This document shows, piece by piece, positions 1 through 51,700 of a stretch of 64,000 bases of DNA. Every line of letters begins with the position of its first letter. Positions within the stretch are counted from its first letter, which is position 1. The position numbers and the translations under genes are program-made. The notes beneath the pieces were generated by a model. It was not told the DNA's origin. It saw only the letters and a program-made list of their open reading frames with translations, and did not search any database. The stretch spans positions 6,634,495-6,698,494 of the forward strand of contig SSBO01000003.1 in assembly GCA_005281725.1 (NCBI GenBank). The letters are read 5' to 3'. The DNA is from Wuchereria bancrofti (taxonomy: Eukaryota; Nematoda; Chromadorea; Rhabditida; Onchocercidae).

Positions 1-1460
1 AGAAGATTGAAGATCGAAAAGTGTGGTTGACGAATTGGATGGCTGTAAGTATATTGCATTCATACAATAGCAAATCTTTATGTATTTATACTGTGTTGTA
101 TTCAGTTCTGTCTTATAAAAATAACCTTTAACAAAAAAATAGTAAATGTCTGCCACGTTCATATCGGGCTGTTATGACTATAGTTGGTCTTGGGAGCTAC
201 TTTTATTAATCATCTACGGTTAAGGATTTCCTTTCATCGTTTCTTAGGAAAAAAAAACAAGACGTGAACAAGGATTAACGGAAGAGTATTTATACGATAA
301 AGATACTCGTGCTGTTTCATTCAAAGATTTCGTCAATAAAGAATTGGTTTTATTTTCAAATGCTGATAATGAAAGATCCATACCAAGTTTGGTTGATGGA
401 TTAAAACCTGGACAGCGTAAGGTTAGTTATATAATTATTAATATCTAATTTTTTATTTTCGCAGTTAGAGCATATATAATGGATTACATGTATGTGGGTT
501 TTCCCATGATTGTACGCAATCCGGTTTTCATTTAAACTTAAAGTGCTCTCAAAAGATTGTGGGAAACTTAGTCTTAAATTAGAATTTCTTCAGTTTTATT
601 ATTTAACTATTTTCAGTATTTTTAGACTCTCCCGATTATTTTTTAGGTGTTGTTCACTTGCTTCAAACGAGCAGATAAAAAAGAAGTGAAAGTAGCTCAG
701 CTTGCTGGTGCAGTTGGAGAAATGTCTGCTTATCATCACGGGGAGGTCCTGGATAAATTCTAGCTTTCTCTCACTGCTACACCTACTGCGGAAAAATCGC
801 CATAAATTTCAAATCAATCTGAGTTTTCAGGCTTCACTTATGTCAACAATCGTGAATCTGGCTCAGGATTATGTTGGTTCGAATAACATTAATTTATTGT
901 TACCAATCGGTCAGTTCGGTACACGTTTGCAAGGTGGAAAGGATAGTGCAAGTCCACGTTATATTTTCACACAGCTTAAGTAAGCTCGTTTATCGAACAT
1001 TTCTTTACTAAATTTTGTTCAAGTCATCAACTTGAGATGTCGATAATTTGATTGGGGAATGTTTGATTTTAAATTTAATTGTTACAAAATATTCGTTCAG
1101 TCCTGTAACCCGAGCACTGTTCCCCGCTGTTGATGAAAATGTTCTACGCTTCCTGTTTGAAGAGAATCAGCGAATTGAACCTGAATGGTGAGTTTCTTTT
1201 TGTTATTAAAAATGGAGAGAATTTAAGTGTAGATCTGCATACTCTGTTGAATTTCGTAGGTATTGTCCAATTATACCCACAGTTTTGGTTAACGGGGCCG
1301 AAGGCATTGGTACCGCTTGGTCAACGAAGATACCAAACTACAACCCACGTGAAATTGTTGATAATATGCGGCGCTTAATACGTGGCGAAGAACCCAAACC
1401 TTTGGTATGTTTTTGATTTACTGAATTTTGAATTCTCAAAGTTATAGTTTGTATTTATTA

Positions 1461-1492
<32 letters not shown>

Positions 1493-4400: not shown

Positions 4401-5492
4401 TTACGTTATTGATGATGACGATGATGATGTGATTGAGATTAAAAAAACAACAGCTGGAGATAGAAAGAGACGAGTTAGTTAGCGGTTTTTTTTAAGAAAG
4501 GAATTTTCCGGGATGTCCCTTTTGAATTTCAAATCGCGTTTCAGGCGGAACAATCAGCAACTAAAATGGATTTGAGCAATGATGATGTTAATGTTGAGAG
4601 TAGTTTGATGCAATCAGGCAGTGAGGGCAAGAAAAAATTTCATGAGAAGATGGATGATCTTTTTGTAAATGAGGTTAGCTTTGATTTGTGTTAAATAGAC
4701 AAAATTTTTGGATTTTTATTTCTTTATTTGTTTTTCCAAAAATAAAAATGATTCGCACCATATCGGAATAAATCTCACTTGATGCTGTAATCTACAGAAA
4801 CCATTTGGAAGTAATACAAAATCAAAAGATATTCCTGAAATCAAAGAAGCCAAATCTAAAAAACAAACAAAACCTAAAGCAAAAATCACGAAAGAAACAA
4901 GTAAAAAGGTGAGTATGCTTTCTTGTAGTTGTCAGTCAGCAGATCAAAGGGAATGCTCGACAGCTGTGTCATCATTTTCCAAAAACATTTCCTCCTCACG
5001 CGTATAATAGTGAAATCATAAATTGAAATTTACTAAGTTTCAGGACTTTGCGCTGGTGAGAGTTAAGTTTTTCGAGTAGTTTTATTTCTCCTAATGTGGC
5101 CAACTTTATCATTTTCCAAAAAGTATTGCCTCCTCCTCTTCTTTAAACTATGTAATTATTCTTTTTTTTTTTAAATACGCTTAAAATCACATCATTGTTT
5201 CATTTACCAAATTATATTATAGGGGTCGGAGTCCAGAAAGCGAAAAGTGAAATCTAGTGATGATGATGATGATGAAGGCAGTGATGATGGTGCTGACGTC
5301 CCCTTTGAACCGGCTGCTGTACGTCCTCGTGAAAGAGGCCGGCAGCTTAAAGCTGTTAAATACACCTTTGATGATGATAATGATGACGATAGTGATGACA
5401 TTCCTGGATTGTCTGAGAGTACATCATCATCACACCAGATGAAGCGGCGAAAGAAGATTGAAAGTGATGAAGAATTTGAATTAAGCAACTAA
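1..5492 (+). CDS. top-2: DNA topoisomerase II, 3' part of gene (19 exons in window)
   Basis: Type IIA topoisomerase; it passes one DNA duplex through a transient double-strand break in another, using ATP. Exons read in phase: 1-44, 248-421, 647-745, 831-979, 1101-1187, 1260-1404, 1641-1840, 1929-2064, 2316-2468, 2590-2787, 3113-3268, 3363-3437, 3525-3632, 3822-3974, 4055-4100, 4307-4473, 4545-4673, 4798-4908, 5223-5492. The breakage-reunion core is clear: the SAYHHGE segment, VGSNN, the [12 protein letters not shown] loop and SPRYIFT, whose Tyr (codon 960-962) aligns with the catalytic tyrosine of eukaryotic topoisomerase II. It is followed by [12 protein letters not shown] and the winged-helix, tower and coiled-coil regions. 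Exons 15-19 encode the usual poorly conserved C-terminal tail, rich in Asp/Glu and Lys/Arg, with basic clusters suited to nuclear import. The ATPase and Toprim domains lie upstream of the window, so the gene is 5'-partial. The stop is TAA at 5490-5492. Confidence 0.97.
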
Positions 5493-8400
5493 GAAATCCT
5501 TTTGTCGAACTAACCTTTGGTTGTTTACATTAATAAGCTGAAGCATTCATTGATTAATCCTTTTTATGTAGTTAAAGTACAATGATTTAGTTGTTTTATG
5601 GTTACTGCAACCTGCAATTCTAGAAATTGTCTACCTGTTTCGTACCTCGTTTGTATTCATTTTTTCTGAAACGGTAATGTGATCTTGTTTGAATTTATAT
5701 ACAGTTTCGTTAAAATAAGATCAACTTATGATTTTGTTTTTTGTTTTTTTTCTTTTTTTTGCATAGAACTTTATTTGGTTTCACAATTGTGCAGCAGTTT
5801 TACATGCCGAATAATTCAGAACAAAATAGTCTGTTTAATCAATATCTCCTAATTTCTGTGTATATAGGTTATTTTTGATCTCTTCACTTTTTGTGATTAT
5901 TTGTCTCTTTTGTAAGTTATATAAAGTATTTATGTCTTTTTCTGACAGGAGCCTATTTTTTCTTTCACATTAATCGTCTTGTTCTTCGATTTTCGTGATA
6001 TAACACTAAAAATGTTCCCCTCATTGTGAAGTAAGACCTCATCAACTTATCATTTTGCCTTTTTTGAACGGACGAGGAAACATTATAGAGTGAGAGGAGG
6101 GCTACGATTCAACAGAATGAAGTAGAGCAGTTATTAGCCCAAAAGTAGGGATGAAATGGCTGTGCGAGTTGGGTTTTAGGTTTGTCGAGCAGTAGAGTCA
6201 TACGGTGTGATATTTCGTTCAAAACCTACGTAATAGCATCATTGCCATGTGAAAATGAAGAGTGAGGGATAGTTTCCAAGGATTTTAAATGGAATCAGAA
6301 AGATATTGCTGCGCGCTTGTTGCGTAACAACAGAGAAGATCTGAATGATCGAAAGTTTAATTGAAAAAATTTAACAACGATAGGTGTAAGTGGTGGTGTT
6401 GTATCGTACAGCTAGCTTATCCTAATTTCTATTTGTAGTGGAAAATAAAATATGTTGGCTACACCCTTACTATTAGTTTTTGCATTGTTAATTGCAATTA
6501 TTGGCATAAAGATGAACTTTATTTGGTTTAATTTGTCAACAGTTTATTGTAATTAATCAGTTTACTGAAATTATCAGAACTGCTCGCAGCGCAAGTTTTT
6601 GATAACATCGCCGTACACAGGATTGAGTGATCGTGGATTGCAAAAAAAAAATGGTAGGTATCTGCTTCTAAATCTTTTTGGTAACCACCTGTGATTCGGA
6701 GGATTATGTGATAAGCTCTTCAATAAGAGATTATTTTCCTGAATGCAATTATTTTTAATTACGCTTTTGTGCCATAATGAAGTAAGTGATCACATGTCAA
6801 TACCAAAGAACAATTAAAAAAATGATTAATGTCATTAGTCACTCCAGATTACAAACCTGAAACCGTACCGCTTCCGTTTAACTGTCAACATACCTACCAG
6901 AACTCATCCCATAACGCATGAGACCATGTTGCAGTTGGAATTGATTCGAATTGTTTTGTCGTAGCAGTTGCAACAGGCTTGTAAGCAAGGATGCTTGCAA
7001 ACTGCAATCACACATAGCACAGGAAACAAAAGTGCTAATTATACAACAAGCAATGTTTGTTTTCCTGATGTCTAAAAGTCCTATGATTTGCTTTCCTATT
7101 CCTTTAATTCAGCTTAACTTTTTACTGGAATCTGGGAGTTCTCAGTAGTCTAAATTCCCTTTTTTCAGATTATGTTCATAGTGGGGCTAAACTTGGCAAA
7201 GCCTAAGATATTTTATTCGAAAAGGTCTATATGTTGAGAAGTTTAGTCAAAAATTGTTGAAATTATTGAATGAGAAATTCGTTTTTGAAGTTTGAAAATT
7301 GAAAGTTTGTTAATCTTTTAGGGATTTGTTATGGTAGTTTTCTTATTTTTGGTTCAGAGTTTGCAAGATGAATGTGCTCTGTAATGGAATCTGTTGCAAT
7401 GAATTTTATTTGCTAACAACTACATTATACAAAGTATTACTCTACAATGACAATATACTGACAATTTCGCATAAGTATTATCCACGAGTGCAGTGTAAAA
7501 CGGAAATAACAAATGCGAAAAATAAGTAAAGGATATAACTGAAAGGAAATGAATGAGTGTACAAGGCCAATTGAATTGAAGTTTGCTCATTCTAACAAAC
7601 TGAGACAAAGGTTTAAATCTTTGTATAGTGGACATTATCTTACAACAAGCACATGATTACTGCACTATTTATCGGATAGTCTTTACTCTTCATGTAGTAA
7701 GAGAGTTGGATTTTAACACTGACTGTTAGATTAGAAAATCTCTACAGTATTTCCACATTGCAAGCAGAATTGGTTTAGAACGAAGAAACAATTTGCAATG
7801 CACACATTCCTTGTTAATAACCGTAAAGGTAATACAGGTAAGCTCAGTACAGTTGGAAGATGAGTGTTAGATGAATGATTGCTTTTATGAGATACAATTT
7901 GTCTAATGAATATTTAATGGAGACAATCTTTACTCTTATGGATTTCGACATATTATTATAATTTGGTTCCTCCGAAGGTAGCAACCGTATACTTTTCAGT
8001 AATTGCTTAAATATATGTGTCACTTTCAATCATTCATTCAGTGCAGGTAATTCAAATTGTAAAACCGATTACAATAAATAAGTTCCGTAATACAACAGTC
8101 AACAATTGAAATAATAGATATTTGCTGATTGTAACTCTGAATGCTGCAACTGCAAGCTTTGTGAACTCATTATCTTTTTATACTTAATTTTATTCTATAA
8201 ATATTCGCAAATTTGATTTAAATTTAATTTCATTTTTACTTTTAAATTTATTCGTTTGAATTGAATTATGGCTTTTGTATTTACATGTTTGAACGATGGT
8301 CAAATACTTCAGCAATGTGTTCCATTAGTCAAATAAAATATCATGATAATGTTGTCGCGAATTATAATTTCGCGAAACTCTAACCAAAATAATAAAATTA

Positions 8401-10862: not shown

Positions 10863-10970
10863 CACTTGACTGCAAGGTGTTCGCTGTTACTTGAAAACTT
10901 CAGTTCGAAATAATCTTCAATAACTGATTTTTCTTGTTCAGTTCTCTCACTCCTTATTTCTTCATCTGAA

Positions 10971-11461
10971 NNNNNNNNNNNNNNNNNNNNNNNNNNNNNN
11001 NNNNNNNNNNNNNNNNNNNNNNNNNNNNNNNNNNNNNNNNNNNNNNNNNNNNNNNNNNNNNNNNNNNNNNNNNNNNNNNNNNNNNNNNNNNNNNNNNNNN
11101 NNNNNNNNNNNNNNNNNNNNNNNNNNNNNNNNNNNNNNNNNNNNNNNNNNNNNNNNNNNNNNNNNNNNNNNNNNNNNNNNNNNNNNNNNNNNNNNNNNNN
11201 NNNNNNNNNNNNNNNNNNNNNNNNNNNNNNNNNNNNNNNNNNNNNNNNNNNNNNNNNNNNNNNNNNNNNNNNNNNNNNNNNNNNNNNNNNNNNNNNNNNN
11301 NNNNNNNNNNNNNNNNNNNNNNNNNNNNNNNNNNNNNNNNNNNNNNNNNNNNNNNNNNNNNNNNNNNNNNNNNNNNNNNNNNNNNNNNNNNNNNNNNNNN
11401 NNNNNNNNNNNNNNNNNNNNNNNNNNNNNNNNNNNNNNNNNNNNNNNNNNNNNNNNNNNNN
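10971..11461. other. assembly gap (run of N)
   Basis: About 490 unresolved bases sit between the start of the small secreted protein gene on the minus strand and the AT-rich region before the cuticlin gene. A promoter or 5' UTR exon for the secreted protein gene could be hidden here. Confidence 1.
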
Positions 11462-12520
11462 TTTTTTATAAAATTCTTAAGGTTAAATGAACTGAACAGA
11501 ATAGAATGTAATAAGATTGAATCAAATCATCAGATTCTTCTTCAAAAAAAGCATACATAAGGTTATTACAAAGGAAGGAACTACTTTTACGTGCACGATG
11601 CAAAGTGCCAAATTGTCCCATCTAATTTCATCTACCTCCGTCATTGTTAACAGCTAATGATAGAGTTATAACTCAAAAGATATGAATACTGTTTCTTTTT
11701 TAGAATTTGAAACTTTTTCTTAAATCTGAATTGGACTTTGAAATTCAACTTTCGGATATTAGAGAATCATCACAGATTCTGTAAACCTTTCATGAAGCAA
11801 TCCTTTCATCAAATGTAAATCTGTACTCAGTAAACAGCATTTACTGTTAAGTAGTTCATAGCTTACAGTTATGCATTTCAAATTACTTTAACGAAAACCG
11901 CCCACACACGTAGACGTGATATTTCCAACGCAAAAATAATACCGCGTGGATGAAATATTTTCACTCCAGACACAACAACAGATCAACAAAAATAGGACAT
12001 AGTAACCTAGCGAAATTATGAGAAATTTAGCAAACATTGTTCAAACCTCGGGTTTTAAACTGGTTTGCTAAATTTTCAGCATGTAGCGATAGGTGACACT
12101 GCTTGCTTCTGTGTTACTAAAACTTACTTCTTGTGAAAATTAGGATCCTCGCATGGTATGAAATCAGCAAAATCTGCGGTATTAAGTACGAATGATGCGT
12201 ACACTTTTCAGATATTTGGAGGGAAAGTTTGTGTGTGAAAGTGCGCGGCATAAAGGTTCTTACCTTAACATTTCATACCTTAATTTTAGTACTAAGTGGT
12301 AGAGAAGAAGGCGAATTCAAATGATACTTTTGTATTATATTTATTTGAGTAATCCATCTATGCCCATATAAATTCAACTTAAATTTGGTGTTAAATAATT
12401 ACGAAAGTTTAATTCTGCATTTTTTTATACTTTAAAAGTAATCTTTCACAAATATTTCATAAACGACGAAAGATACATTTATCATTATTCGTCTATTTTT
12501 ATTGAGCATTGATTACTTTA

Positions 12521-15834: not shown

Positions 15835-18800
15835 GTCAACCATTGGTAGAATGTGGAAATGAATTTATCCGATTTTCGGTTAAAACAATAAGGCCTTTTC
15901 GCGGTAAAGTATTCGTCAAAGGACAACATGGAAACAGCGATTGTAATCGAAATTATAGTGAAACTGATTCTACCAGTACTTTTCATTCACGCGGTAAATT
16001 TTAAATATATAGGTGGAAAGTTTAGGTTTTGAAATTGTTGGATCTGCTCATCATTTAGAGGTGAAAAGCATTTTACTAAGAGTCTCGAACAAGTCTTGAC
16101 TTTAATCAATTCTGATATAAGTAATGACACGTGACTTCTCTTTCTCTAACATTTATGAGTTGAAAATCTTTTTTTCGATATTCCAGTCTAGCAAGTATGT
16201 TCATTATTCTTGCTCTATCTTTTAACCTTACTTCTCTTCCTTTCTTTGCCACAAAAGCGAAAATAAGAAAGATAAACGATATGGCCGATTCGATATTGTG
16301 CAAATTGCAAAATTGAAATTTTAAGGGATAAATTCTGGCTTGAATTTAGTCAACATAAATATTTCTAGAGACTGCAAATAGTCCAACACAGAAATGGAAC
16401 GATTCGTTAGATGAGCCAGTATTTATGTCATCTTCTCAATCACTGTCTAAAAGTACACAAGGAGCAAGTTTGCTTAGTAAAGCAGAGAGCAATCCGGAAG
16501 CAATTAGAATGACCAGTACTATTCATGGTGGGAAAAACGTAAAATACACATCAAGAATAATGAACAATTTAACTGAAATCAAAATTAAAGAGAAAAAGTT
16601 GCATTCTTTCTGTGGATGAAAACTCATTTAAATATGTTATCAGAATGGAACAATGAAATTGGTTACCAATTTATCATTAAAGGATAGCAAAATTAAGGAT
16701 AGCAAAATTGATTAATATAATCTGGAAAGTGATTTGTTTATTACATTAGAAATTATTCGTTTTGATGCTTGAAAGCTGAGCAATTTTAAGAAATTTGATG
16801 ATATCATTGATAATATCAATAAATTTAGCGAACAAAAGTATCAGTAATAAATCAAATAAACCTACTCGATTCTGTAGATGACCGACTCGAAACGACAAAA
16901 CCGCACTCATCAAAACATTTTGATACAGCTTCAACAACACCTCATTGTCCGCCATGCCCGATATGTCGAGATGAGTTGAAGACTGACGGAGAAGGAGAAA
17001 CTACCGAAGGCACTGCTGATTTGCTTATTAAATTTGGCAATTGTAATGTTAAATACGAGCAACAAGTATACTTCTCCTTCATTTAATTATTTGTCCAACC
17101 TGAAATTACTGAACAAAAGTTCACTGATAAGTAACATTCTAAGTTTTCTTTCATTACAAAGAACATTCATTTCTAACTAATATTATGTAAACTGATCTAT
17201 TTTCACAAAATATGTAACCATTAACGTTATGTCTTTGAGAGAAGATAATGGCAATTCAATAATTTAATAGATATTGTGAAGCGGTAAATCAAAAGAAAGT
17301 TCAGAGAAAAAAAGTAGAACTGTTAACGATTTTTATAAGGAGGTTAAGGACAAACCAAAACAAACTGCTCAATGTAAGCATCTTCAATTATAATGATTAT
17401 CGAAGCTAGTGACGATCGATAGTCTTAAGAAAGACAAATGCTAGTATAAGACTAAAGTTTGTTAAAGTTGCATAAGTACTGTAGGAAGAATAAGCACCTC
17501 GAATATTAAATACTAGTAAAACTGAGGAGAAATATTTAATAATTCAATAAGGAATGCATTAACTCTTATAATCTTGGCTTCCCTAATTTTTGGAAGAATT
17601 TCAGACAGAGCCTCGAGCAATGATTGTATCTTTAACGGTAGTTGTTAGCTTTCATCAAAATTTACTTACTAAATTAGATCGAGCATTTCGTATTCAATGT
17701 GCATATATGGAAGGTAGTGAGACGATCGATACTGACTTAAGCGTTAGGTTAGTTTTTTTTTTTTTGAAAACTTCCATGTGTCTATTGAAGTTATTCAGAT
17801 TGTCAATGCATGTTCTACATAATGCATTATTAAATCTGAACTCAATCAAGGAGGTTAACTGTATTCTATTCCGTTCTTTCATAACCTATATATAAAGAGT
17901 CTAAATTAATTTTCGTTTAAATGTGATAAATTAAAAAAATTGAATGTGATAAATTAAATAAAGCATGTGATAAATTGAAAGTTACTCTGGAATTTTTCAG
18001 TATGCCTCCAAGTATAGAAGTCGAATCGAAAATTAATACACCGCAATGTATTTATGCGGTTAAAAGTTCTTCTGGCAAAGTAATCACGAATGCTCGGGTT
18101 GGTGAACTCATTGAGCATGAATGGATTTGTCAGAGTCCCTTCAAAGGTTACTGAAAAATTTTTTGATTGAAATTGTCTATATTTTGAATTGACCAAGTCT
18201 TAAATATACTTATAGATGACTAAGATTCTTTCAAATAAATTAAGTTAAATCTGTTCTTATAAAATTCCCTGCAATATTGGGACTATTTATGAATTTACTG
18301 AAACTAATCTTCAAGTCTATTTCAGACTATCATTTACAATTTGTACAGGAACTATTCTATAGAATATTTTTGAATGGACTTGAAATTTCCATTTACTCAT
18401 TTTTTGCTGGAATTAAACAAAAAATTTCAGGTGTTCATGCAATGCTGGTAAGGAATTGTTATGCAGAATCAAATGATAACTTTAGAGTTCCTGTTATTGA
18501 TGATAACGGGTTCGTTTTTTTTTTAATTTGCATTTAATTTATGGTAATTATCATTTTTCCTAGCAAACATTTTTCTAATTTCTTTTTTGTGCAATATGCA
18601 CAAAAAGTAAAATCATTCATCATATTATTTCAATAATTGTAAGAGTTTTAGAAGGAAAGAAATGTGATTTCATTCAAAAATTCTTCAATTTATGAATCAG
18701 TACCGTTTGATTCTCTCCTTAATTAATTGCCATAATCGTATCAACTAAAGTAGCAAACCGATGTAACTTTTATAATATTTTTGCAATTAGGCAGTGGTAT

Positions 18801-20906
18801 TCGTTCATTTCCATTTATTGCTATTTTCAAGTAACTAATTCAAGTATATTTGATTTTGTTGAACAAAGTTATATTTTGAGATGTACATTGGATCCTTATA
18901 TTTTACCGAATCTAGAATATGCATCAGACTTACTGTCAGTGAAAGTACGAGCACCTGTTTTCAAATTTCCTGATCGTTCCGAAATTGGTTTCCGATGTGA
19001 TGTTCTGGTTTGCCTGCGAGGCCAACAAGATTGCGAATTGATTACGATAAGCTTTTATTTTATAAACTTCATTAACAATCTATTTATTATCCTAATTAGT
19101 TTTGATTGTCATTAAGGAAATTTATATTATTATATGTCAGCTTTAGCACAACTTCAATCTTATATTAATAGCGGGTTTATTTAAATATAATGTGATTTAA
19201 ATGATATGAATGGGTTTAGTTTAATTTTGCGTAGAAATGAGTTTGTTAAATATTAAGAGCTCAGTTTAGATGAATTTTGTCATAAAAGTTAACATACCTT
19301 GAAGAAAGTCCCAATGAGCAATCATTAATCCTAATTAGTTGTTATAATAATCAAAGGAAGAAGAGTGAGTTCCGCCACTGAAATTTTCGAAAATGGACTG
19401 ATTCAAGAACAATGAATTCACTGCTAAAAACTTTGCATAAGTTTCAGTCTATAATTTGGTTTAATGGAATGCTTATTCCCATAACCGATGATGTAGCCAT
19501 CTTATTTTGCCTGGAATTGTTACAGCTTTGATTAGAGAAATTTAAATTGAGTTCTTATTATGCTAATGGATTAATTTCTGCACAAAACTTCAAAGCAAAA
19601 ATGCAAATAATATAAACTCCAACTTTTACGATTAAATAAGTAAAAAGTCAAAGCATTTAGGAAAGTTTAGTTTGCGCAGGATTCTGGAAAACAATAGTTG
19701 TCACTCGGAAAACTTCAACTTGGATCTAAAAATGCAAGATTAATTCAAAGTTTTATTTGATTAGAAAGACTTTTCCTTTTTTGATCTTTCATCCTTTTTT
19801 TGTTCACCTCTTCGTTGCTTCTTCCTTCGTTTTCAAATTTCTCGTAAAAATTAAATCCCAGTAACTAATTCTCGGCGAAATTGTTAATTTATCACCGTTG
19901 AGATTGGACTAGAAGTTATCAAAGTTCGGATAATTTTCTAACAATAAAGCTTCGTATTAAAATTTACTAGTGCAGCTATTAGTTCTAGGACAGATATATC
20001 AAATATATAGGTATGTCGACAAATGTCTCAAAAGTCAAAAGCATATGTGCTTTTAACTGGTCGAATATTTTGGAAACTTAATTAAATAATTTGAAATTAA
20101 TATTCTACAATGGAATGAATCGTTATTCCTTTCCTCGCATGAAATTTAATCATTTTCTTATTTGATGATTTTGAATTGTTATTCATTTTGCAGCCACCAA
20201 AATGCGCTAACAGTAAACGAAGACGTCGCGATTTATCCAATATTAGCAGAGAAAGCTTGGTTCTTCGAACACCAAAGATTAATATCATCGACCTGGATGA
20301 TGATACTCAAGGTATAGTATATGATCTCCTTAATTAATCTGACTACGCTGATCTCGGCAAATTTTTGGTTAGGAAAATCTCTACATAGCACAACGTTGAC
20401 GTGAATTTGCCCCAATCCCAGTTATTTTCCATAAAACAGTCATCGATAAGATTTGATTTTATGCTTGTCACGAGGACTGTCCACTCAATACACTCAGTAA
20501 TTGTTCTCCGTGTTGTGTTGCTACTTACTGCAAGACTAATAAAACTCTAAGCGGATACACTGATAATCTATGCCGTTAAAATGTTTCATTTGCTCAGATA
20601 GTTTTTTTTTTCTTTTTTTTTGGGACTCAAAAAGTAGTAGCAATGTAGTTTTTTGCTCTAGCAAATGTGTAATATCTGTTCATGATAGAAATACTGATTT
20701 GTTAGTCATGTTAACTGTTCCTGATTTTAAAATTATTTACAGGAGTAGGATCAGAGCAATTAATTTTGAATCCCTCATTATCCGGCAAATCGTTGCGATA
20801 TTGCTTAACGGTGACTCAATTTGCATGCATCATTGCAAGTGCTACATTTCTAATTACCACTACAGTGACCCTTGTTGGTGCTTCTATCATCAGCTCCAAT
20901 TCATAA
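15835..20906 (+). CDS. ZP-domain cuticlin-like membrane protein (5' end missing)
   Basis: A nematode cuticlin-type zona pellucida protein, a family of apical extracellular matrix components of cuticle and alae, secreted from epidermis after cleavage. Exons: 15835-15993, about 16370-16530, about 16878-17065, 17605-17747, 18001-18146, 18431-18509, 18791-about 19040, 20194-20311, 20743-20906. ZP-N hallmarks are VECGNEFIRFSV, GKVFVKGQ, FGNCNVKYEQQ and VSLTVVVSFHQ followed by DRAFRIQCAYME. ZP-C follows with HEWICQSPF, LVRNCYAE, DDNG, CTLDPYILPNLEY and FRCDVLVCL. After PPKCANSKRRRRD, where SKRRRR matches a furin-type site, the last exon encodes a hydrophobic C-terminal anchor and TAA at 20904-20906. 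Two oddities: an extra Ser/Thr/Lys-rich block within ZP-N, and no canonical donor after the exon beginning at 18791. The signal-peptide exon is not identified. Confidence 0.85.
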
Positions 20907-28900: not shown

Positions 28901-30764
28901 AAAGCTATTCACCTATCACCGGCCGCAACAAGTCCATATATTTGCATACAACGATATATTTGCTGTTCTAATTTTTCCACCAGTTTGCTCTTCAGCTCTC
29001 TCTGAATTCAAGAGAACTTTTGTAAAACTTAAATATTAACGGCGCATTTACTGATATTTTAAAATCATTCAACAACATACTTCTGCAGCTGCCTAAATCG
29101 GTGACTAGGAACAATAAATAAAAACTGAAAATGGCTGTTGAAAAATCGGGAATGGACTGACCTTTCGACTGGAATTTAAATCACCCCTCAGTAAATGACG
29201 ATGGAAAGCAAACAGGCACCGCGGTTGAGCCAAGCGTCCTTCAGCAGACCATCCCTGTGGAAAACCCGTAACAGCTGACAATTTTATCCGAATTTCTCTC
29301 TGACAAAACCGTCGAAGTTCATTGGCTCGTTTCAAATCACGGCAACAATTCTGATCAAATCGACAACCTGGTTCCATGTAAATGAGCAGATGCGAATAAA
29401 GTAGGAGAAAGGTCAGGCATCGCGCATAGTCGATTTCCTGCTGAGAAAGAAGTTCGAAGAAATCCTGAAATTCATAATATAAAAAGAAATCTGAACTGTG
29501 CATATTCACTATCAACGAATAGTTAGTTGTATGTTTGAATAAGTTACAAAGAATTAAAAACTGTCTAGTATAAATTCACATAGCTTTTCGGAAAGTTTCA
29601 AATTTAGTCTAGAAATATTTCAGAAGAGCACTTTTCTACTAAATTAAAATTGAATAATGAAGCAATAAAACCACAATTGTTCTTGCTGAACTCATCTATT
29701 ATAATAAACACGTGTCAGAACTATTTTTTTGTAAGCCAACCAGTAATATAAAACCATTCACTACATCCTTACCTTTCGGTTACCATCATTATTTCGTACG
29801 AAATGTTCCAATGAGCATAAATCACCATAACCAGAAAGATGCAAAAAAAGAACTGACAATTCTGATTCATAATAAGCTTCGATCTAAAACTATGCTATTT
29901 ATGTCAAAAATGAAACAAATATTTAATCCAGGCAAATCTTACACTGAGAATCACCAAGATGTTTCGTTATGCTTCCCTATAGTGCCATACGTGGCTATGT
30001 ACATTAGTCTTCTGAAGAAGAATGACAGTTTCAGTCCTCTAATTGCTACGTTTATCACCATAGTTAGAGTGGCGATAATTCAAATAAATACGTGTTATGT
30101 AACAAAAAAAGAAAACCTAATAAAAATTTGAAAAGCAAAATTTTATAAGTTTTAAAAAGTATAAGACCGTACAAGAAATGTCCCGCCTTCAGAACACATA
30201 TGAAGTTAATCGCTTACCGAAGCAGTACTGCCTTCTACAACGATTGGCTGAATGAAAATTGGGCGCCCTAATAAGTGATTGATTGGATCGGCCTTAGAAC
30301 AATCACTAGAAGCTTTTCCAACAATTCCTACAACAACAACATGCCTCCCTTCAAACATAGCCAAATTATACGCCGACTCGGTAAGCCACTTCGATAATGA
30401 TTCTGCAAGTCCATTCCTCATCCTGCTATCGTCCTTAACACACATAAAACACAGATGAGAGATAGCAATAAGTATATCATTAATATAGATAAATAAATAC
30501 TTTGTTAATCATTCTTCGACCAAAACAGTGCCATCTTAAGATTATTTTTGAATCAACAAATTATTAATCATAATTAAATAGTAAGTGATTCAATCTACTA
30601 ACACGCAAAGAAGACACTCGACTGTGCTTCAAACTCAACTTTTTATCTGTAATAACATCAAAAAGGATTTGATCAGTATCGGATTTCATTTTCTTTAGTT
30701 GGATTAAAGAAAAAGAAACAAAATTATCTGGTAAAATTAGTAAATCTTCCACAAAAGAACACAT
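22998..30764 (-). CDS. smg-8: SMG8-like nonsense-mediated mRNA decay factor, multi-exon
   Basis: SMG8, with SMG9, binds and restrains the SMG1 kinase that phosphorylates UPF1 in nonsense-mediated decay. Order on the minus strand: first exon 30603-30764; 30218-30433 with the P-loop-like start VVVVGIVGKAS; 29162-29464; a 12-base exon 29081-29092; about 28913-29001 with KLEQQIYR; about 28550-28736; near 28050-28113 (FGEFLRSHINLV); 27720-27850; 27245-27370; 26870-27012; 26285-26420 with HSSGARFLSTCNCGHSQ; 25930-26130 (FTCCKNMEEYEFEVF); 25610-25690; 25265-25435; 24905-25095 (acidic); 24600-24710; 24290-24495 (GVRSKRL); 23860-23935 (FEYECPRGHRF); 23320-23480 (MRLHVVTPKAPVTV); 22998-23160 (YYILRFPYVYAGP), TAA at 22998-23000. 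These motifs match family signatures in order. Middle exon limits are approximate. The start at 30764 is preceded by a possible trans-splice acceptor (CATTAG then GAA before ATG). A later start in the second exon is the alternative. Confidence 0.9.
29081..29092 (-). other. smg-8: 12-base microexon of smg-8
   Basis: The sequence GCAGCTGCAGAA lies between an acceptor (GATTTAG) and a donor (GTATGT). It adds Ala-Ala-Ala-Glu in phase 0 between the exon ending at 29162 and the exon starting at 29001. Skipping it would also keep the frame. Confidence 0.5.
29712..30131 (+). other. 139-codon open frame inside a smg-8 intron, opposite strand
   Basis: An ATG-to-stop frame of 139 codons lies wholly inside the intron between the smg-8 exons at 30218 and 29464, antisense to that gene. 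The predicted protein is basic, with one hydrophobic stretch (VPYVAMYISLL) and no signal peptide or motif I recognise. In DNA this AT-rich such a length is uncommon by chance but not excluded. It could be a decayed mobile-element fragment or a spurious frame. Confidence 0.2.
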
Positions 30765-31859: not shown

Positions 31860-34800
31860 TTAGTTCTGAAAAGATACATAGTCTCGAGGCAATAAGGGCA
31901 CTCTTTCATTAATTTCATCTTCTGCATACTGTATTGTATTCATTACTTCAATGGTATGCGATTGGCCAACACCTGAAAGTAGGACCATTTATATTTTATA
32001 CGAAACATGGATTAATCTATCCATGAAAACAAAATAAAAGTACCAGTCCGTGCCAGAATTGATTTTTAGAATTGCACATTGACATATTTTAAATTAACAG
32101 GAGGAGATTGATCAACTTATTTGTTATACATCTCGTTTGACTTCTTTTTTCTTTTCCGTGAAAAAGTTATTTCATTATCTCAACTAAATGCAATGTAAAT
32201 TGGTTTTGTTTTCGGATTAACTTAAAATTCTCTTTGTGAGGAATATTTTTGTAAGCAGCGTGTCGAAATTTTAAGAAAGCCATAAATGCTCTAACATTTA
32301 GGCCGGAATTCCAACTTATCAGTCTTGACAAATAGCGCTCTAGATAGTGGTGATCGCTGTCCATCTTTGAAACAAGCTGTGGCACAGAACGTATAGAACC
32401 AGTCATAGCGTAGATCAGGAAAAACTATTCGTTGTCCACGAACTGTGATCCGTTCCCAGACTGAGAAGTGAGCATTAGGATTTTCCGTATAATAAACAAT
32501 ATAATTCTGAAAGTTATCGCATTCTAAGGTTAACTCAGACGAGTTAATCTCTCAGGTAATGTCAAAAGTTTCTATGAGGAAAACTAAATACTTTAAATTA
32601 ATGTTTCAGAAGGATATTCTCTTGCTCTGAAAAAAATATCTGTTGTTTCGAATGTTGTGGAAGGATATTAATTAATAAACTGAATTGAACTGTGCAAATG
32701 TCTTTAGGCGACTAAGGTTATTGAATATACTTTCAAAGTTATAATATTACAAAATTTGCTAATATATACCGCAACATCTCTGGTGCGTTTGTAAGGCGGT
32801 TCCCAAGATAATTCGATCGTGTTTGCGTTCAATCGTTGAGCTAAGATATGTTGTGGGCTAAGCTGTGGCTCTGCAACACATTACTGCAACACACTACTCA
32901 ACTTAGAAGTTGCATAAGCTTTTCATTTTCAATCATAAAGTATTTTTTTGTATCTGTATTACATTTTTCTTATTTGATTTTTATCGAGACTTCAATTTTA
33001 TAAAATATTTTTTTCACTTTAACACTTTGATCATTTTTGTTTAGTGTTTCTGCGAATTCCTAAGACCTCTTTTTGAAGTTAAAAATAATTCAGGTAATGA
33101 TTTAGCAGGTGCAAAAATTGTGGAATAATCTGCTCTTCGATCAATTTTTTTGAGTAGATCTAAAATAATATTTTCTGAATTTTTTGGAAAGAAGTGAGGT
33201 TACTTGATCTTCAACCGAAATTTTAAGGATTTATCGTGGAAAAACTTCAGCACCTGTATATTGCACTAGATAGACTGGTTTGCTTTCACCGTAGCGTGAA
33301 ACAGCTGTGATACAGAATTCATACAAAGAACACGAATCAACGCTCATAATTTCCGCTGAATGTCCTTGAATGCCGCGTAGTTCACGCATTTTACTATCTT
33401 CTTGATGTCTAAATTAACTGCTTTTCTTGGAATGTAATTCTTCGAATTTGTTAAAGCACAATTTTCAAACTCCAAACTTCCATGAATTGTTCTGATAATG
33501 AAATGAAAATGTGTAAAGGTGTCATGGATATGAGAAGTTAGCAGAAATTCACTTTCAAGTAATCTTTTTCTACTGTAAATTCAAAATCGAATCTTTCCCC
33601 ACTTAAGCAAATTACTATTACAAACTTGATCCGATAACGTATATTGTAGGTAACTTGATCGTCAGCAGAAAATGCCGGTGCCCATGCAAGGCGTACTGAA
33701 TAAGCAGATGTGGAAACAACCTGACATTCCCGTGGTGGATCCGGTGGCAAACGAGCGAACATAAATTCATCATCTGTTACTAAAAATGAATTTTATGAAA
33801 TGTTTTTAAACTTGAGAGGAATTAAAAGAACTGAATTTCTGCATGCGGATAACTGACCATCTTATTCTTATTATTTATTATTTCATTCTTATTATTTCAA
33901 TATACTTAACCTGTAATGAGTGAGAAATCTACATTGTGATATAATCCAAATTATTTTTAAGAATAATTAAAACTTACACATATGTGGCCCACGTTTTTGA
34001 AGCTTTCTGCTCATTCGTCTTCTGGCGCCCATATGAGTATTATGTTCGAATATCATACCTTTCGCTAATTCCAAAAGCATACTTGCAGTTGCTTGTCGTC
34101 GCCGCCTAAATTTTTACATAATTCATAGGAATCCAGCTTGTGAGGAATAGATAGCAAAAAATGAATAGAATATTGTTCTAAAGATAAAATATCTCTCAAG
34201 TGATTTGGAGCTAAAACTCAACGATCAATTTGATTAGTTGCATAGTCAGCAGGATCAAACTGGTAATTTGATTATTTTGACATAATATTTGTTATGGAAA
34301 ACACATGAACACCTTGCTTTTGCTTCACGAATCAGAAAGAAGGGATTATTCGTTTGAATTTTACGACCAATGTAATGAATCTCCTTTAGATACATTCGAC
34401 CGACAACATCCATACACATTGTTGTCAGAATTATGCCACCCATGATGACACACAAAACTACCAACATGTTTTGCTGTCCCGGGCGATAATCACCGAAACC
34501 TGCATCCAGTAGTATTTCTCGAATTATTATTTAAGTTGCAAAACTGACTATTTGATTTTTAAGTAAATAACATTGACTTCAATTTCATACGGTCTATTCA
34601 GCTGTATAGTATTTATCTAAAACAATAATAATTAACTGATTTTTTCCTTATTAATAGTTGTGAAATTCATACTAACCAACTGTCAAAATGCTAATAAATG
34701 TGAAATACACTGATTCGGTATAAGTCCAGTGTTCTTTCTTTTGAATAATATATGAACCGAAAAGGCCATATAAGAACACAATTAGAAATAAGATTACCGG

Positions 34801-36736
34801 TGGAAAGCGAACAAGCTTTACTTTGTCTAATAGTTCCTGAAATATGAAAATTGAATTGTATCCATGTGAAAATTTTTTTGTCACCATCTAAATATTAGTT
34901 TAAAGGGGAAGATCATAATTTAGAACTTGTTCATCGTCATTTCCACTAAAAATAGGTCGAAGGTCATGGGTCGTAAATTCTTTCCGGCGATCTCTCCATG
35001 TTGTTAACTTTTTCCAACAATTGTAATGAATTAAAAAAGCGCATTCTGATATGAACTTGGCAATGTTAGCCACTGTAACCAGTGTTAATGGGATGCCTGA
35101 AAAATGAAAATTCAGTCTGGAAAATGTAAAAGCTGATGAAAACATAATTTAGATTACAATATGAACCAAATTTTTATGTGACATTTACCAATGAGACAGT
35201 AGATGACACCGAATAAACGCCCGGAGAATGTTGATGGTGCAACATAACCATATCCAATTGATGTGAGCATCGTTGCCGTAAAGAAAAACGAGGTAATAAA
35301 ATCCCAGCACGGAGCATTCGTATCGTAGCCATGTCGATACTTAAGATGAGCGGTAAACACGGTATCGACGTACTGCAATATGTGAAATGGCAGAAAATCA
35401 CACGACATTTTCTATCTTAGAATTATCGTAACTTTTCATCTTTAACAATTGATTCAGTTATTTCGTTAAATTTTATACAGCATTTGTTGGGCAGATCAAT
35501 TAAAATTTATTGTTATGATTAATATAGTAATTACTTTATAAAATTGTTCTTTACTATCGCGTCTAAATATTTCCTTCAGTTCTGATCTGCCTATTTTTTG
35601 ATATTTTTTAGAATGTGTTAAATCCCAAATTCGATCTATATACTTCTCCACGCTTACATCGATCCTGTGTAGTTGGGCTGCTTTCATGTCCTGAAATTAT
35701 AACCATGATGATATATCTTTTCAATGTTTACTCAACAATAACAGTATTATACTTTTTATAACATAAACTGGGCGCATCTTAACGTCTATGCAATGTTTTG
35801 TGTTAAATTGAATCTCAACAAATTATAATTTCATGTACATGAAAAAAATTTGGAAGAAACAATTTCATGTTTATGAAAAAAGTTAGAGAATTTTTTTGTA
35901 AGCTGTTTGCAACCACTGATGTTTAAATAAATTCAAATGTAAAAGCTCAATACTTGAGTGGTCATTTTTTTATTATGTATTAAAGTTAATAGCACAATCA
36001 TTTCAACGCTTATTTAATGATCCGACTGAATGCTTTCATAGTTATTTAACTGGAAATAATTGCTTAATAATTGCAGCAGAGGAAGCAATGAAAGACTTTA
36101 TATTGTCGTTTTTTTTTGAAATTAAAAACTTGAACATTTATAACATTTAATTACTTTTTGACAGGGAATAAATTGAGATTACAAAACGTAGACGTCTTAA
36201 TTCAGACGTTTTAATGCACAATAGTTTGTATTTTTATTACTATTCGATCATATCATTTGATTATTATTGAAGTTCAAAAATTTGGAAACTTTAAGGTGAC
36301 GTCCTTCGAGCGCTTGAAATATCCATGCCCCAATTACCATGTATAGAATGCAAGCTACAATTAGCAAGAAATGCGCAGAGATGATTTTGGTAACAATCAG
36401 ACGCCGTAAAATCCTGAAAAAGTAGTGAAAGTGCAAAACTTTTAAATTGTATAAAATATAACTTAAGTTATAAATGCTATGTTTTTGCCAGAATATGACC
36501 TTACTGGACACAGCTTGTTTGCTTAAAGGAAAAGGAAATAATGAATACCTTAAAAAAGACATTACAGCCAGCTTGTTGGTGAGTTTATATTCAAGCTGAT
36601 GAATCTTGGCATTTTTAGCTATTATCGTTTTATCGGATTTAAAAACGTCGATACATACGTCAACAAAGGGAGTGTTACGAGGAAGAAGGAAAAAGAAATG
36701 GAAATGATAGAGTAGTATATTTGGCGGAGAAAACAT
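31860..36736 (-). CDS. two-pore-domain (TWK) potassium channel with two C-terminal fibronectin III domains
   Basis: A K2P leak potassium channel of the plasma membrane. Exons (minus): 36549-36736, 36290-36413, 35535-35690, 35189-35372, 34927-35096, 34677-34836, 34313-34499, 33978-34105, 33626-33779, 33254-33408, 32770-32870, 32296-32506, 31860-31972; all phases agree and give 676 residues. The first membrane segment (HFLLIVACILYMVIGAWIF) is in exon 2. Pore 1 has TSIGYGY. Pore 2 has TVGFGDY, split by the 34499/34677 intron. After the fourth membrane segment (VVLCVIMGGIILTTM) and a basic linker, two FN3 domains follow: the first from PPDPPRECQVV through YEFCITAVSRYGES (33626-33254), the second from ANTIELSWEPP through FYTFCATACF (32870-32296). 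Such a C-terminal extension is not usual for K2P channels. By channel topology it should be cytoplasmic. The start could instead be the internal Met of MSFLR in exon 1. Confidence 0.88.
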
Positions 36737-45742: not shown

Positions 45743-48700
45743 ATGAATAGTGGAATGGTGAGAGAAGATTCGGATGTCGCATTGGAAGCATCCCACTTCG
45801 CTTTCCTTCAACAGAACAAGAATATTTTAGCGAATAATGTTCTCTGGAAGCGGAAGGTATGTTTTCGTTCTATTGAATATATGGCTTACTTTTTCCCTGA
45901 TTTTCATGTTTTTAATGATCTTTGCTGATCTGTTTTGGATATTGGAAGAAACTACCCAATCTTTTATCAAATTGTGGAATCAAATTATCGTTATTTTTTT
46001 ATCACTGTAGTGAATGACTATTGTATCTTTTAATAAATTTTCATTAAATGTTAATACAGCAGTGGTATAATTTATGTTTCGATATCAAAAATTATTTAAG
46101 TTAAATCCGTAGTGTGGTACAGTAACGTTTTGGCTGATAGAGTTGAGGTCTTTTTTATTGCTGTGACAAATGTTTCCTTGTAACAGTTAAATTTTTTTTT
46201 TTTTGGTACTTTTTGTTGTATTTTTCTGATCTTCAAAGCATTTTGAGTTTTAATTTAAGTTAAATCTATAGTGTGTCACAGTAACACTTTAGAGTTGAGC
46301 GCTGACAGAGTTTCAATATAAATGAATTAATTTGTATTGAAAACGTATATGAGGCTTCTGCTCTAAATTGGGTTTGCGGATCACATTCTTGGAATATTCT
46401 TTGTTTTACTTCAGCCATGGATTTTGGATAGCTTATAGACTCAATAATATTGGGAAACCCATCAGTATACTATTTTGATTTGCAGTTATTGATTAGAGAT
46501 GATATTATTCACTTGTTATGAAAGTTTGTTTTCAACTATAAATTCTAACATTTTTTGAGCAGAAAAATGATGCATTCTATGTTTTCGTATTTGCCAAACA
46601 AACGATGTTTTATCTAGCAAAATTGATTCATCTTTAGAGTGGGCTTGTAGGATCCTGCAGAGGAGCATCACCGTTTAATTTATACTGGTACTCTTTATTG
46701 TTTTTTTACATTTGATTTTAAGTTTGCAAGGATTTAGAAAAGTGCAGAAAGTGACAGCAGTCTTTTTCATTTAAACAATCTTTTACTTTTTCTTATGCTT
46801 AGTGACAATAACCGAATGTGATATACCAAACATACTTTTTTTTGCAGAATTCGTAATATAATTTGGCGTGAGAACTCAGTCCATACTGTGTCTTATTATT
46901 CCTCCCTACCTCGCCCTAATTTAGAAATCTTCAAGGATTGTAATATTCTTTTGCCAAGTCTACTTCTTGGTCTTAATTTCGTTTTTCTTTTTACGATGCT
47001 TAATAGATTGAATAATGAAGATGATCTTTTATTATTGCCTCTGTCTTCGATATTATTAATTAAGTGCAGAAATTACTGTGACAGATCACTTCTTTTCTGC
47101 AGAAAGACAGAAAAATAAGAGAACAAAACTTGGTTAAAAAGTGTCGGCTGGTTTATCTCTTATTGTTAATCTGATCTCATTTTAGTTTTGTTTAAATAAT
47201 CTGCTCTTATGTAATATTTATTTTTCGGTTCGTTTTGTTTATTGGTTGGCGAGTTTTTTTATTGGATGAAAATTGTTCAGTCTTATTTGTTTGATATGCT
47301 TGCCGGTTATTTAAGAAGAATTAAAATAGGTCGTTTGTGTTCAAATTGAGAAGGAAAACGGTATTCTTTTAATACCATAATTGGTTGAAAGAAGAAAGCT
47401 GCTGAGAGCTTATGGATCTTTCAGAATTTTCAAATTAAATTTTTTTATCGAGTCAAAGATTTTTACTTTTATGTTTATTTCAGGAACAGTTGGTGAAATG
47501 GGAAACATCGGAAACGAATCGTTTGCCATCGGTTCGAAAGCTTAGTCATGAATCGAAAGTCAAGTTTACTGTAAGCCAGTTGATGTATATCAAAAACTGA
47601 AATTAATAATAACTCATTGATTATAGTTGTTATATTGTTTTATTAAGGTAACAAATTTTTTCACTAGCTATATGACTATAAACTGATGCAGGATGGTCCA
47701 TCCAAAGCCTTTAAAATTTTTTTTACTCACGGATACTCATTTCTAGCAAGCGAATCACGTAATAAAACTGGAGAGGTTTTTGACCAACAATTTATATTTG
47801 AAAGCTAAAAATAATTTGTAGGACGAGGACATATTTCTGAGTGCTTGCTTAAGTGGTGATCTGGAAGAAGTGCAGACATTACTCAGCGATGGTGCGAATA
47901 TCAATACTAGTACAGTGGATGGTCTTACAGCCTTACATCAGGTCATTGCAGTTTCATAATTAGTTGCAGTTTGTCGTGAATTGAAAAATTCTAATAGTCG
48001 AACTAAGCACATTTTTCCTTATAAAATCTATTTAAGGAATTTTTATAATTAGGTTTTTTAATTATCATAGGTTCCACCGCCTTGACTATAATGGTATCTG
48101 TTGAAGGTTTGGGAAAAGTAAGATTTTTTTATTGTTACTATGAGAGATGGGTGCCCACTTTTTTTATCAGATCCAAAAATCTTAGCGGATACAGTATTAC
48201 GAAATGAAAATTAAACCCAGCGTTTTAGCTTATATTATCCAATGGTAAGAAAAATAATATAACTGAAGTGCATTTTGAGTTTGCGATGTTTCATTAAATA
48301 CTCATTCAAATATTTAAGGCGGTCATCGATGGCAAACCAAAGATGGTGCAATTTTTAGTGGAGCATGGAGCTAACGTCAACGCACAAGATAATGAAGGTT
48401 TGTCCATTTTTCTGTTTTATTTGCCGTAGATTAATGGTCATAAATCTTTCTACATCTTCATAACATGGTTAATAACATGGTTAATTTTTCCCATGTTCAC
48501 ATCTCTTAAGCGGAAAAATCTACATCCTTTAAGTGTCTTGGTTTGTTGGATAAGCAGTCTCATTTCCATGATGAAACTAACCCATTATCATCAGTTTTCT
48601 CTTGCACTTCTTTTTTTTTTGACGAAGAAGAATTTACTTTCTTTAGGTTGGACCCCATTACACGCAGCAGCTTGTTGTGGAAATGTCGATTTAGTCGAAT

Positions 48701-51700
48701 ATCTATGTGCAGGGGGTGCCGATCTTTCTGTGACAAATAGCGACAAGGAATTAGCTGTTGACTTGGCAGAGGAAGATGACTGTCGTTTGGCCCTGGAAGA
48801 GGAACATCAACGACAGGGCATCAATCCTGATGAATGCCGAAACAGGTAAATGCATTTGTGTCGTATGTTAATACATTTATATTACCGAAGTGTTTTCAAG
48901 TTTAGCCGATGAATGTGAATGAGAAAGACTTATCCGCTCTAACTGTCAACATTATTTGTTTGAACGTACGCAATTAATTGTTAGGTTTGTAGCCATGTCA
49001 CTATGTCAGACATATATGACAATTCTAGGTATATAATCAAAAAGATTTACATCTTAGGTTGAGTGAAAAATTAGTTTCAGTTGCTCTAATTGCTTTTCGG
49101 AGGCCTACGTACTAATCTATATTATAGAGAGTTAGCAATAATGAGACGTGATGCAGAGCAATGGCTGAAGGATGGTGAAATGCATGATCATCCGCATTCT
49201 CGAACTGGTGCTACAGCGCTTCATGTTGCAGCCGCTAAAGGGTTCCTATTTATTTCATTACAAGATAGTTGTTTTTATAAAGAACTGCTTATTTTTAGTC
49301 TTTAAGCTTATCTGCTGTCAATTAGGTCAGGAACACTTGGTTGTTGTGTTTGTAATACTTATTTGTCGCAGTTTTTTGTTATCAATAATACAACATAGTC
49401 TTCTGTAAGAACATCTTTCATTCATTGTTTCTCGTCCGTACTACACTTATCATTTTAACTTCCCTACCATTCTTTATATTGGAATATGGCTTTATGGTAT
49501 TTAAAATTTGGTAGAAACTTGCTGCCATTTACGAATCTCTTTCCCTGACCTGACTTATTCTCTCTTGCGCATAAATCATCACTTCGTTTATTCTCTTGAA
49601 AATGCATAGAAGTACCATTATTTCGGTTGTTTCAGTTATAACGATGTAATAAGATTGTTGCTCAAAGCTGGTGCTGATGTAAATTGTCGTGATCGTGATG
49701 GCTGGACTCCACTTCATGCTGCTGCACATTGGGGTGAGCATGAGGCTGCTACTATTCTTATTCAGAATGGTGCCTCGTTCTCCGAACTTACCAATAATGT
49801 TAGTATTATATAAATTAAATCTTTTGCAGACATGACTATTTTTCTCTTTGGTGGGGGTAGTAGACATAACATCATATGTTGGGCAGATGTAATTTTGTTT
49901 AAAAGGTGATTTACTATGATAGGAATAAAGTAAATGGAAGCAAATAATAGAAGGTAAATCTTAGTTCAGAACTCAAATACCTGTTTTTTTTTTTTTTGAC
50001 TTGTAGATTAAAGTGATTTATTGTTCATCTCATATTTTTTGATCAGTGACTAAACAAGCGTTCAATTGAACTGCAGTGATTTTTTTCTAACTTACAGGGT
50101 GAAACAGTATTAAATGTTGCCGATAAAGATATTGTTGAATACTTGGAAGGAATGCAGGAAAAAGAACGGTTGAAACTAACTTCCAACAGTTCTGTTAATA
50201 TATTGGCACACTCTAATACACCACTTAAAAGGTACTAACTTTTAAAGTCGTAATTTATTGGCACTTTCCTAAAAATGGGTTTGAGCAAAATCATCAGTTA
50301 CTTGTTTTAATTCACTTGTCATTGTCTTAACTGAGGCCTCACTATGCTTCATTTCTTTTCAAGTCACTTTCAAGTAATTAAGTTACACAGCTGTACAATT
50401 ACTGAATTTAATGGAATAAATCTTTCAGTATTTTACTTTATGTTTGTCTTATTATTCCTAATTTTCATTTATATTTCAAGAATTTTTGTAGAGCTGGTTC
50501 GACGACTTCCGTTTTAAGAATGTCTACGGAAGAAAAAACAAAGAAAACAAAACTGGACGAACGAGATGAAAAAAAAGAGCTTAAGGAAGGTGATTACTCC
50601 TTCATTATTGAAGACAAGTCTCCGTCTCCATCTGTAGAAGTTCGATTACCGTTCCCTGTGAAACAACATCAACCCGATATTTGTGAGTCTCCCTCTGAAG
50701 ATAGCAGGTTTGTCTTTATTGGGAATATATTCAACTCAAATTATGAAAATGTTTTCTATTTGCATGCTTAATGTGGAGTTCAGTCTTATGGAAATTAAGG
50801 AGAGATGTACAAGTTAAAATATTTTTTGGATTTTGGCATTATTGCTAGTTTATCTCTTATATCTTTTTTTTCCCTCTTAAATATAAATAAATGAATTGAG
50901 AATTTTTAAATTTGTCACAATGAACTCAGGGCAGAAAAGGCACTAGAATAACTTTGGACTAAGACACGAAAACAACTGGCAAAAATGATTCGTAACTATA
51001 GTATTAATAACAAGTGTTTCAGCTTAACAAGAAACAATGTTTTAAGTATAATTTACATTGCTCACTTTCGGAAATTAGCATAAATATAGATTTAGTGATT
51101 GGAAAATATAAAATGAGTTGACATGTCTCTAATTCCATAAGCATTTGCAATTCAGATCTTCCAAATCAAACAGCGAAGGTTGTAGCGAAGAAAAGACTGC
51201 TTCGATTTCTGAATCTAAGAACAGCGATTTGGACAAGAGTGGGTCAACTGGATCAGAATCTGTTGCTTTTTCTGAGTCTGATCAAAAAAGAAGCCTAGCA
51301 GTGGAGGATAGATTGGCACGTGTTACAACCGTTCCATCTCCTCCTCCGATAGTGCCAGCGTGCGTAAGCGAATCGAAGTCTCCATCAGAAGTGATACGGA
51401 ATTCAACTTCCCCTTCATCATCTACAACCATTGTTAGTTTTACTGAATTTAAATAATGGTTGGTTAAACATATAAAATATCGGTTAAAAACATATGCCAC
51501 TTTTTTCCAGAATTTTAAGAATTCGGGGAAACCAAATCCAGTCTACCTGAAGTCCAATTACTAGTCGATGAAATAAATTTGACTAATAGCTAGAATGTCG
51601 TGCAGTTATTATTAATGAAGGGCACAGTGCACGAATAATTTTAATGATCATTAAAATCATGTAAACGTTTAAGTTTTTTTTGTAAAGTCACTTGTTTGTT

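Follow-up and report, generated by a model that had tools for sequence, protein, structure and literature searches.

A filarial TWK-30-type K2P potassium channel with two fibronectin type III domains on its predicted cytosolic tail

Two-pore-domain potassium (K2P) channels set resting excitability, and their placement in neurons is poorly known. We have analysed a 64,000-nucleotide stretch of the Wuchereria bancrofti genome (assembly GCA_005281725.1, contig SSBO01000003.1, positions 6,634,495 to 6,698,494 of the forward strand; hereafter the window), which encodes on its minus strand a K2P channel that continues in the same reading frame into two fibronectin type III (FN3) domains. This channel gene is most probably orthologous to twk-30 of Caenorhabditis elegans, an assignment based on the source label 'Protein TWK-30' of a partial Aphelenchoides avenae protein (P0034, 58% identity) and on the Caenorhabditis orthologues P0012, P0040 and P0055. 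We take twk-30 to be F36A2.4. According to one study, worms with a loss of twk-30 function show a longer reversal after head touch (10.5 vs 6.4 body bends), and forward locomotion and curvature are not marked there as changed (PMC9049526). Another lists twk-30 for all ventral-cord motor neurons and mentions that a twk-30::GFP strain was made (PMC1079822), and PMC3534327 names twk in a family table. The word 'fibronectin' is absent from the main text of the first two papers, and in the open-licence literature searched we found no paper discussing FN3 domains of K2P or TWK-30 channels; a search for work on K2Ps of filariae gave papers that, judging from their titles, deal with other channels. 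The architecture is already domain-labelled in databases and has seemingly been little discussed.

Vertebrate K2P channels (TWIK, TREK, TASK, THIK) differ from the window protein in that the solved K2P chains are listed with 264-424 residues and match best in the channel part; vertebrate K2Ps are not known to have FN3 domains. The nearest matches to the FN3 pair in sequence and fold are FN1-FN2 of LAR and PTP delta and FN5-FN6 of neogenin and DCC, which are extracellular, unlike the placement predicted here, and share about 20-28% identity. With integrin beta4 (Foldseek E about 1e-10; 1qg3, 3f7p) the window protein would share a membrane-protein tail that carries tandem FN3 domains in the cytosol. 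However, this is a different membrane protein with 18% identity, and plectin binding is a feature of integrin beta4, in which the first of the cytoplasmic FN3 pairs contacts plectin at its actin-binding domain (PMC4452579). The idea that scaffolds place potassium channels in nematodes is current, since PMC11164867 reports potassium channels and the dystrophin-associated complex in planar-polarised compartments of the muscle membrane of C. elegans.

The window gene consists of 13 exons (36562-31860, minus strand) that splice in one frame to give a protein of 618 residues, with GT..AG at every intron and a continuous phase throughout. Exon 1 (36549-36562) is modelled with a short start, ATG TCT (MSFLR), but translation may instead begin in the same frame about 174 bases further upstream, at 36736, and give a longer N-terminus. 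From the splice model and the alignment, aided by hydrophobicity for exon 2 and by Pfam for exons 4 and 7, we assigned the first membrane segment (M1) to exon 2 (36290-36413), the extracellular cap to exon 3 (35535-35690), the first pore loop with TSIGYGY and the start of M2 to exon 4 (35189-35372), M2 and the M2-M3 loop to exon 5 (34927-35096), M3 and the first part of the second pore loop to exon 6 (34677-34836), and the GFGDY filter, M4 and the start of the post-M4 segment to exon 7 (34313-34499). The remainder of this conserved basic segment and a variable linker are encoded by exon 8 (33978-34105), which ends in phase 1. FN3-1 (33254-33779) is formed by exons 9 (33626-33779) and 10 (33254-33408), FN3-2 (32296-32870) by exons 11 (32770-32870) and 12 (32296-32506), and exon 13 (31860-31972), placed by splice model and alignment, carries a conserved tail (GQS.TIEVM ... 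LLPRDYVSFQN) and the stop. Two donor sequences are weak, GTTTCC after exon 2 and GTTCTA after exon 5; at both, the joined protein aligns to the Dirofilaria orthologue P0001 (611 residues) without a gap of its own. Exon 13 is real, because the match to P0001 (84% identity across 100% of the query) extends through it. Shorter isoforms are possible, since retention of intron 8 would stop the protein three residues past residue 374 and skipping of exons 9-12 (621 nucleotides, a multiple of three) would keep the frame.

Pfam finds Ion_trans_2 in two stretches of the protein (96 bits) and fn3 in two further stretches (58.8 bits together). An earlier note, made from the letters of this DNA, had read the locus as a K2P core running in frame through 13 exons into two FN3 domains, and this reading held up: FN3-1 (32.2 bits, E 1.3e-7) and FN3-2 (35.9 bits, E 8.8e-9) each pass singly the fn3 gathering cut-off of 25 bits. 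The note had also named both selectivity filters correctly, under the interval 31860-34313. They lie upstream of this interval, TSIGYGY at about 35.25 kb and TVGFGDY across the junction of exons 6 and 7 (34677/34499), and the interval itself covers the post-M4 region starting with exon 8, together with both FN3 domains and the tail. The channel half is identified as K2P by its four membrane segments and K2P fold and by the presence, within a single subunit, of two pore loops that have G-Y/F-G filters. A sequence search of solved structures agrees, with K2P channels matching the first half and FN3 domains of LAR/PTP delta, titin, DCC and neogenin the second half among the best 60 of 126 matches. 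The single reading frame and the identity of the domains can thus be read from the sequence, as can the depth of conservation and the lack of a further strongly hydrophobic segment described below. In a structure model of P0001, made as a monomer only, the beta strands of residues 386-564 form an FN3-type sandwich with LAR FN1-2 as the best Foldseek match (E 3.9e-13); the mean predicted local distance difference test score (pLDDT) is 70-82 in 12 of the 18 ten-residue blocks of residues 381-560 and 58-68 in the other six. In the post-M4 segment a helix is predicted at low confidence.

Whether other nematodes share the K2P-FN3 combination had been left open in the earlier note, and the orthologues answer this by keeping both parts in one protein. 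Judged by the Pfam labels listed, 42 of the 54 homologues from a protein search have both domains, one has FN3 only and 11 have the channel only; a profile search gave 71 homologues (both domains 43, FN3 only 8, channel only 19, unlabelled 1). All named sources among the 42 homologues with both domains are nematodes, ranging from Plectus to Caenorhabditis. Identity is 88% over 92% of the length for Cercopithifilaria, 61% over 97% for Plectus sambesii (P0021), 56-58% for cyst and root-knot nematodes (P0030-P0032) and 49% for the shorter model of Globodera pallida (P0041), and a W. bancrofti entry (P0056) matches with 98% over 53%. P0001 and P0021 are colinear with the window protein over its whole length, that is, over the K2P core, two FN3 domains and conserved tail; this full-length arrangement is the same in the TWK-30 orthologues of nematodes and places the filarial protein in that subfamily. 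In P0018 (an open frame of 628 residues on a contig of at most 2,036 bases) and P0033 (670 residues, at most 2,524 bases) Pfam likewise finds both K2P and FN3 domains, and since these contigs are too short for introns, they are probably transcripts holding channel and FN3 domains together.

Neither the profile search (71 matches) nor a search with the Plectus FN3-to-tail region (47 matches) returned a named K2P-FN3 protein outside nematodes or a match name showing Trichinella or Trichuris, which is weak evidence of absence because these searches require shared 5-residue words. The named non-nematode matches of the profile search are fungi (P0068-P0070) and have no FN3 label. On the sequence evidence, the K2P-FN3 architecture is common to many chromadorean nematodes. 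Two other entries, P0029 from Mesorhabditis spiculigera and P0049 from Ancylostoma ceylanicum, are K2P models joined to PF03351 and PF01094, respectively, and may be prediction errors.

Moreover, using Pfam and gene modelling we identified a second, divergent K2P-FN3 gene, which is new here, on the plus strand at positions 1226-5974 of the locus L011 (G000:C9:6613825-6618573). Genome-wide Pfam searches gave 87 fn3 and 59 K2P matches, and the only fn3 exon close to K2P exons was at C9:6616910, 1.2 kb after them. This fn3 search is insensitive to split exons, as it missed the window gene's own FN3 exons. Modelling of L011 1226-5510 gave a partial protein of 519 residues with the filters SIGYG and TIGFGD, scoring 73.5 bits for Ion_trans_2 and 51.6 bits for fn3; one fn3 stretch passes alone, and the second FN3 domain is known from the alignment and an intron position only. 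The protein is colinear with Plectus TWK-30 (25% identity, 163 bits), and once joined it matches our FN3-1 hidden Markov model (HMM) with an E of 3.3e-11, the best of 100 shuffles reaching 0.081. Two of its four FN3-region introns share alignment column and phase with the window gene, one between the FN3 domains (phase 1) and one inside FN3-2 (phase 0). Phase alone is shared by the intron inside FN3-1 (phase 2), which is displaced by five columns in a gapped alignment, and by the one preceding FN3-1 (phase 1), which stands behind a shorter linker; none of the channel introns of the two genes coincide exactly. The L011 gene is without the conserved TWK-30 tail, its last modelled junction (AG|ATAAGC), ahead of the following exon at 5890, has AT in place of GT, and its aligned FN3-1 has other residues at the positions of C393 and C452, two cysteines that are invariant in the FN3-1 of the aligned orthologues. 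Most likely, to judge from these sequences, both genes share one K2P-FN3 ancestor.

We also ran the FN3-1 and FN3-2 HMMs on the open frames of 19 of 33 stretches around further K2P matches, plus L011 and the window, leaving out an apparent duplicate on C16. Among these stretches, only the window and L011 gave matches at E <0.1; the one that follows (L023, E 0.13) is antisense to the K2P there. The search could overlook divergent copies, because the single L011 exons themselves score so weakly (E 0.00035, 0.015 and 0.085). With the window FN3 protein as query, the L011 gene was not recovered at E 1 or better. The K2P loci G000:C8:739703-739837 (L001) and G000:C16:61780-61914 (L002) have identical scores for both exons and are perhaps one locus assembled twice.

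The FN3 pair is constrained as strongly as the ion path. Calculated on 25 near-full-length rows in ten segments, the mean pairwise identity is 0.77 for FN3-1 and 0.75 for FN3-2, against 0.74 for P1-M2 and 0.70 for M3-M4. The post-M4 segment (residues 313-354) has the highest value of the ten (0.81), and lower ones were obtained for M1 (0.47), the cap (0.35), the M2-M3 loop (0.36), the linker (0.45) and the tail (0.59). In 16 of the 29 aligned rows the tail ends in S, F (I in one row), any residue and then V, I, L or F, with A, C or W in five more; this S-F/I-x-hydrophobic end resembles a class II PDZ ligand. In contrast, SFQN is the C-terminus of the window protein and of the four rows from Dirofilaria, Cercopithifilaria, Onchocerca and Thelazia, one further C-terminus reads SFAN and two are irregular. 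Should the tail serve as a PDZ ligand in other nematodes, this end may have been lost on the branch of the filariae and Thelazia.

Each FN3 domain is a two-exon unit flanked by phase-1 introns at both ends. Symmetrical 1-1 modules are a hallmark of exon shuffling, and the simplest history suggested by the exon phases would be that two such modules entered the gene at a phase-1 site, behind exon 8 and ahead of the tail exon. Tentatively, and with some doubt, one may go further and see here a distinct chromadorean class of K2P channels, represented in this filaria by two genes or more, born by this insertion and anchored from the cytosol via the FN3 domains, a mode of placement or mechanical coupling that is not known in vertebrates.

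The side of the membrane on which the FN3 pair lies can be judged from its surroundings. The four membrane segments have hydrophobicity scores of 2.28 to 2.52; beyond M4 the score never rises above 1.03, and there is a net charge of +13 over the next 64 residues. A cytosolic position is well supported by inference from K2P topology, the lack of a fifth strongly hydrophobic segment and the basic stretch after M4, in line with the earlier note, which had put the FN3 tail in the cytoplasm. No sequon is common to the FN3 region, 20 of the 29 aligned rows having none, and given this topology those that do occur should be unused.

We consider it probable that the window gene, as the filarial member of the chromadorean TWK-30 subfamily, encodes a subunit that dimerises into a potassium leak channel, with the cytosolic FN3 pair acting as a docking module for a scaffold or cytoskeletal partner that tethers the channel. 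From the cytosolic end of M4, the strongly basic conserved segment would be followed by the short variable linker, the tandem FN3 domains and the conserved tail, so that four cytosolic FN3 domains would hang under the dimer behind the conserved basic segments. As in integrin beta4, on which this proposal is modelled, binding to the partner would place or retain the channel, and coupling to gating through the post-M4 segment is possible. By this analogy a tethering or interaction role is plausible; potassium conductance, dimer, cytosolic side, binding partner and tethering are what we infer. A K2P that occurs in many nematodes with an FN3 pair conserved like the pore points to a specific cytosolic partner, and the FN3 part, seemingly absent from vertebrate K2Ps, would be a difference between parasitic worms and their hosts.

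Several points weigh against this proposal. The P0001 model has a mean pLDDT of 68.5 and a predicted template modelling score (pTM) of 0.43, and with a pLDDT of about 46-53 in the post-M4 segment and below 50 in the linker it predicts no firm position of the FN3 domains relative to the channel. The top structural matches of the FN3 domains (LAR, PTP delta, neogenin) are extracellular proteins. A sequon is found somewhere in the FN3 region in nine of the 29 rows; in six of these an NAS site recurs in FN3-2, accompanied in one row by a second site, and of the remaining three one has a sequon two residues beyond the NAS site and two have others. In addition, the conservation of the FN3 domains would fit a direct role in gating or assembly equally, and the FN3 partner, the current and the localisation are all predicted.

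The main alternative is a mainly intramolecular function: by packing on the post-M4 segment, or by pairing across the dimer, the FN3 domains would set gating or stability with no outside anchor. It would be favoured by the position of the most conserved of the ten segments just ahead of the linker and FN3 domains, and by an FN3 identity equal to that of the pore. However, a linker of variable sequence parts the post-M4 segment from the FN3 domains, and the low pTM and linker pLDDT mean that no fixed packing is predicted in the monomer model; we regard this alternative as unlikely. Far less probable is an extracellular FN3 pair, for which the protein would need an additional membrane pass or some other unusual topology. 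Extracellular proteins supply the best-scoring FN3 pairs of solved structure, C393 and C452 could form a disulphide, and sequons occur in the nine rows mentioned, but a fifth strongly hydrophobic segment is lacking, the stretch after M4 is basic, there is no family-wide sequon and both cysteines are absent from the aligned FN3-1 of the L011 gene, so that we reject it. Finally, the locus could comprise two neighbouring genes or give two transcripts, one for an ordinary K2P and one for an FN3 protein, which gene prediction alone has combined. This could account for the entries with a single half (one FN3-only and 11 channel-only of 54; eight and 19 of 71), and retention of intron 8 would yield a short channel, but with 13 of 13 exons in phase, both halves in 42 of 54 homologues and in the intronless contigs of P0018 and P0033, and the same domain order in the diverged L011 gene, this explanation is the least credible of all and is rejected.

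Apart from this gene, the window contains about 500 unknown bases at about 10970-11465, which read as X. An open frame downstream of the channel gene on the same minus strand (29105-29575) matches Smg8_Smg9 in Pfam with 53.3 bits and represents a separate gene. On the plus strand, Pfam marks an exon with a cuticlin C-terminal domain (18723-19115, 40.1 bits) and an ankyrin-repeat exon (48430-48849, 37.5 bits), the latter resembling a MYPT-type phosphatase regulator.
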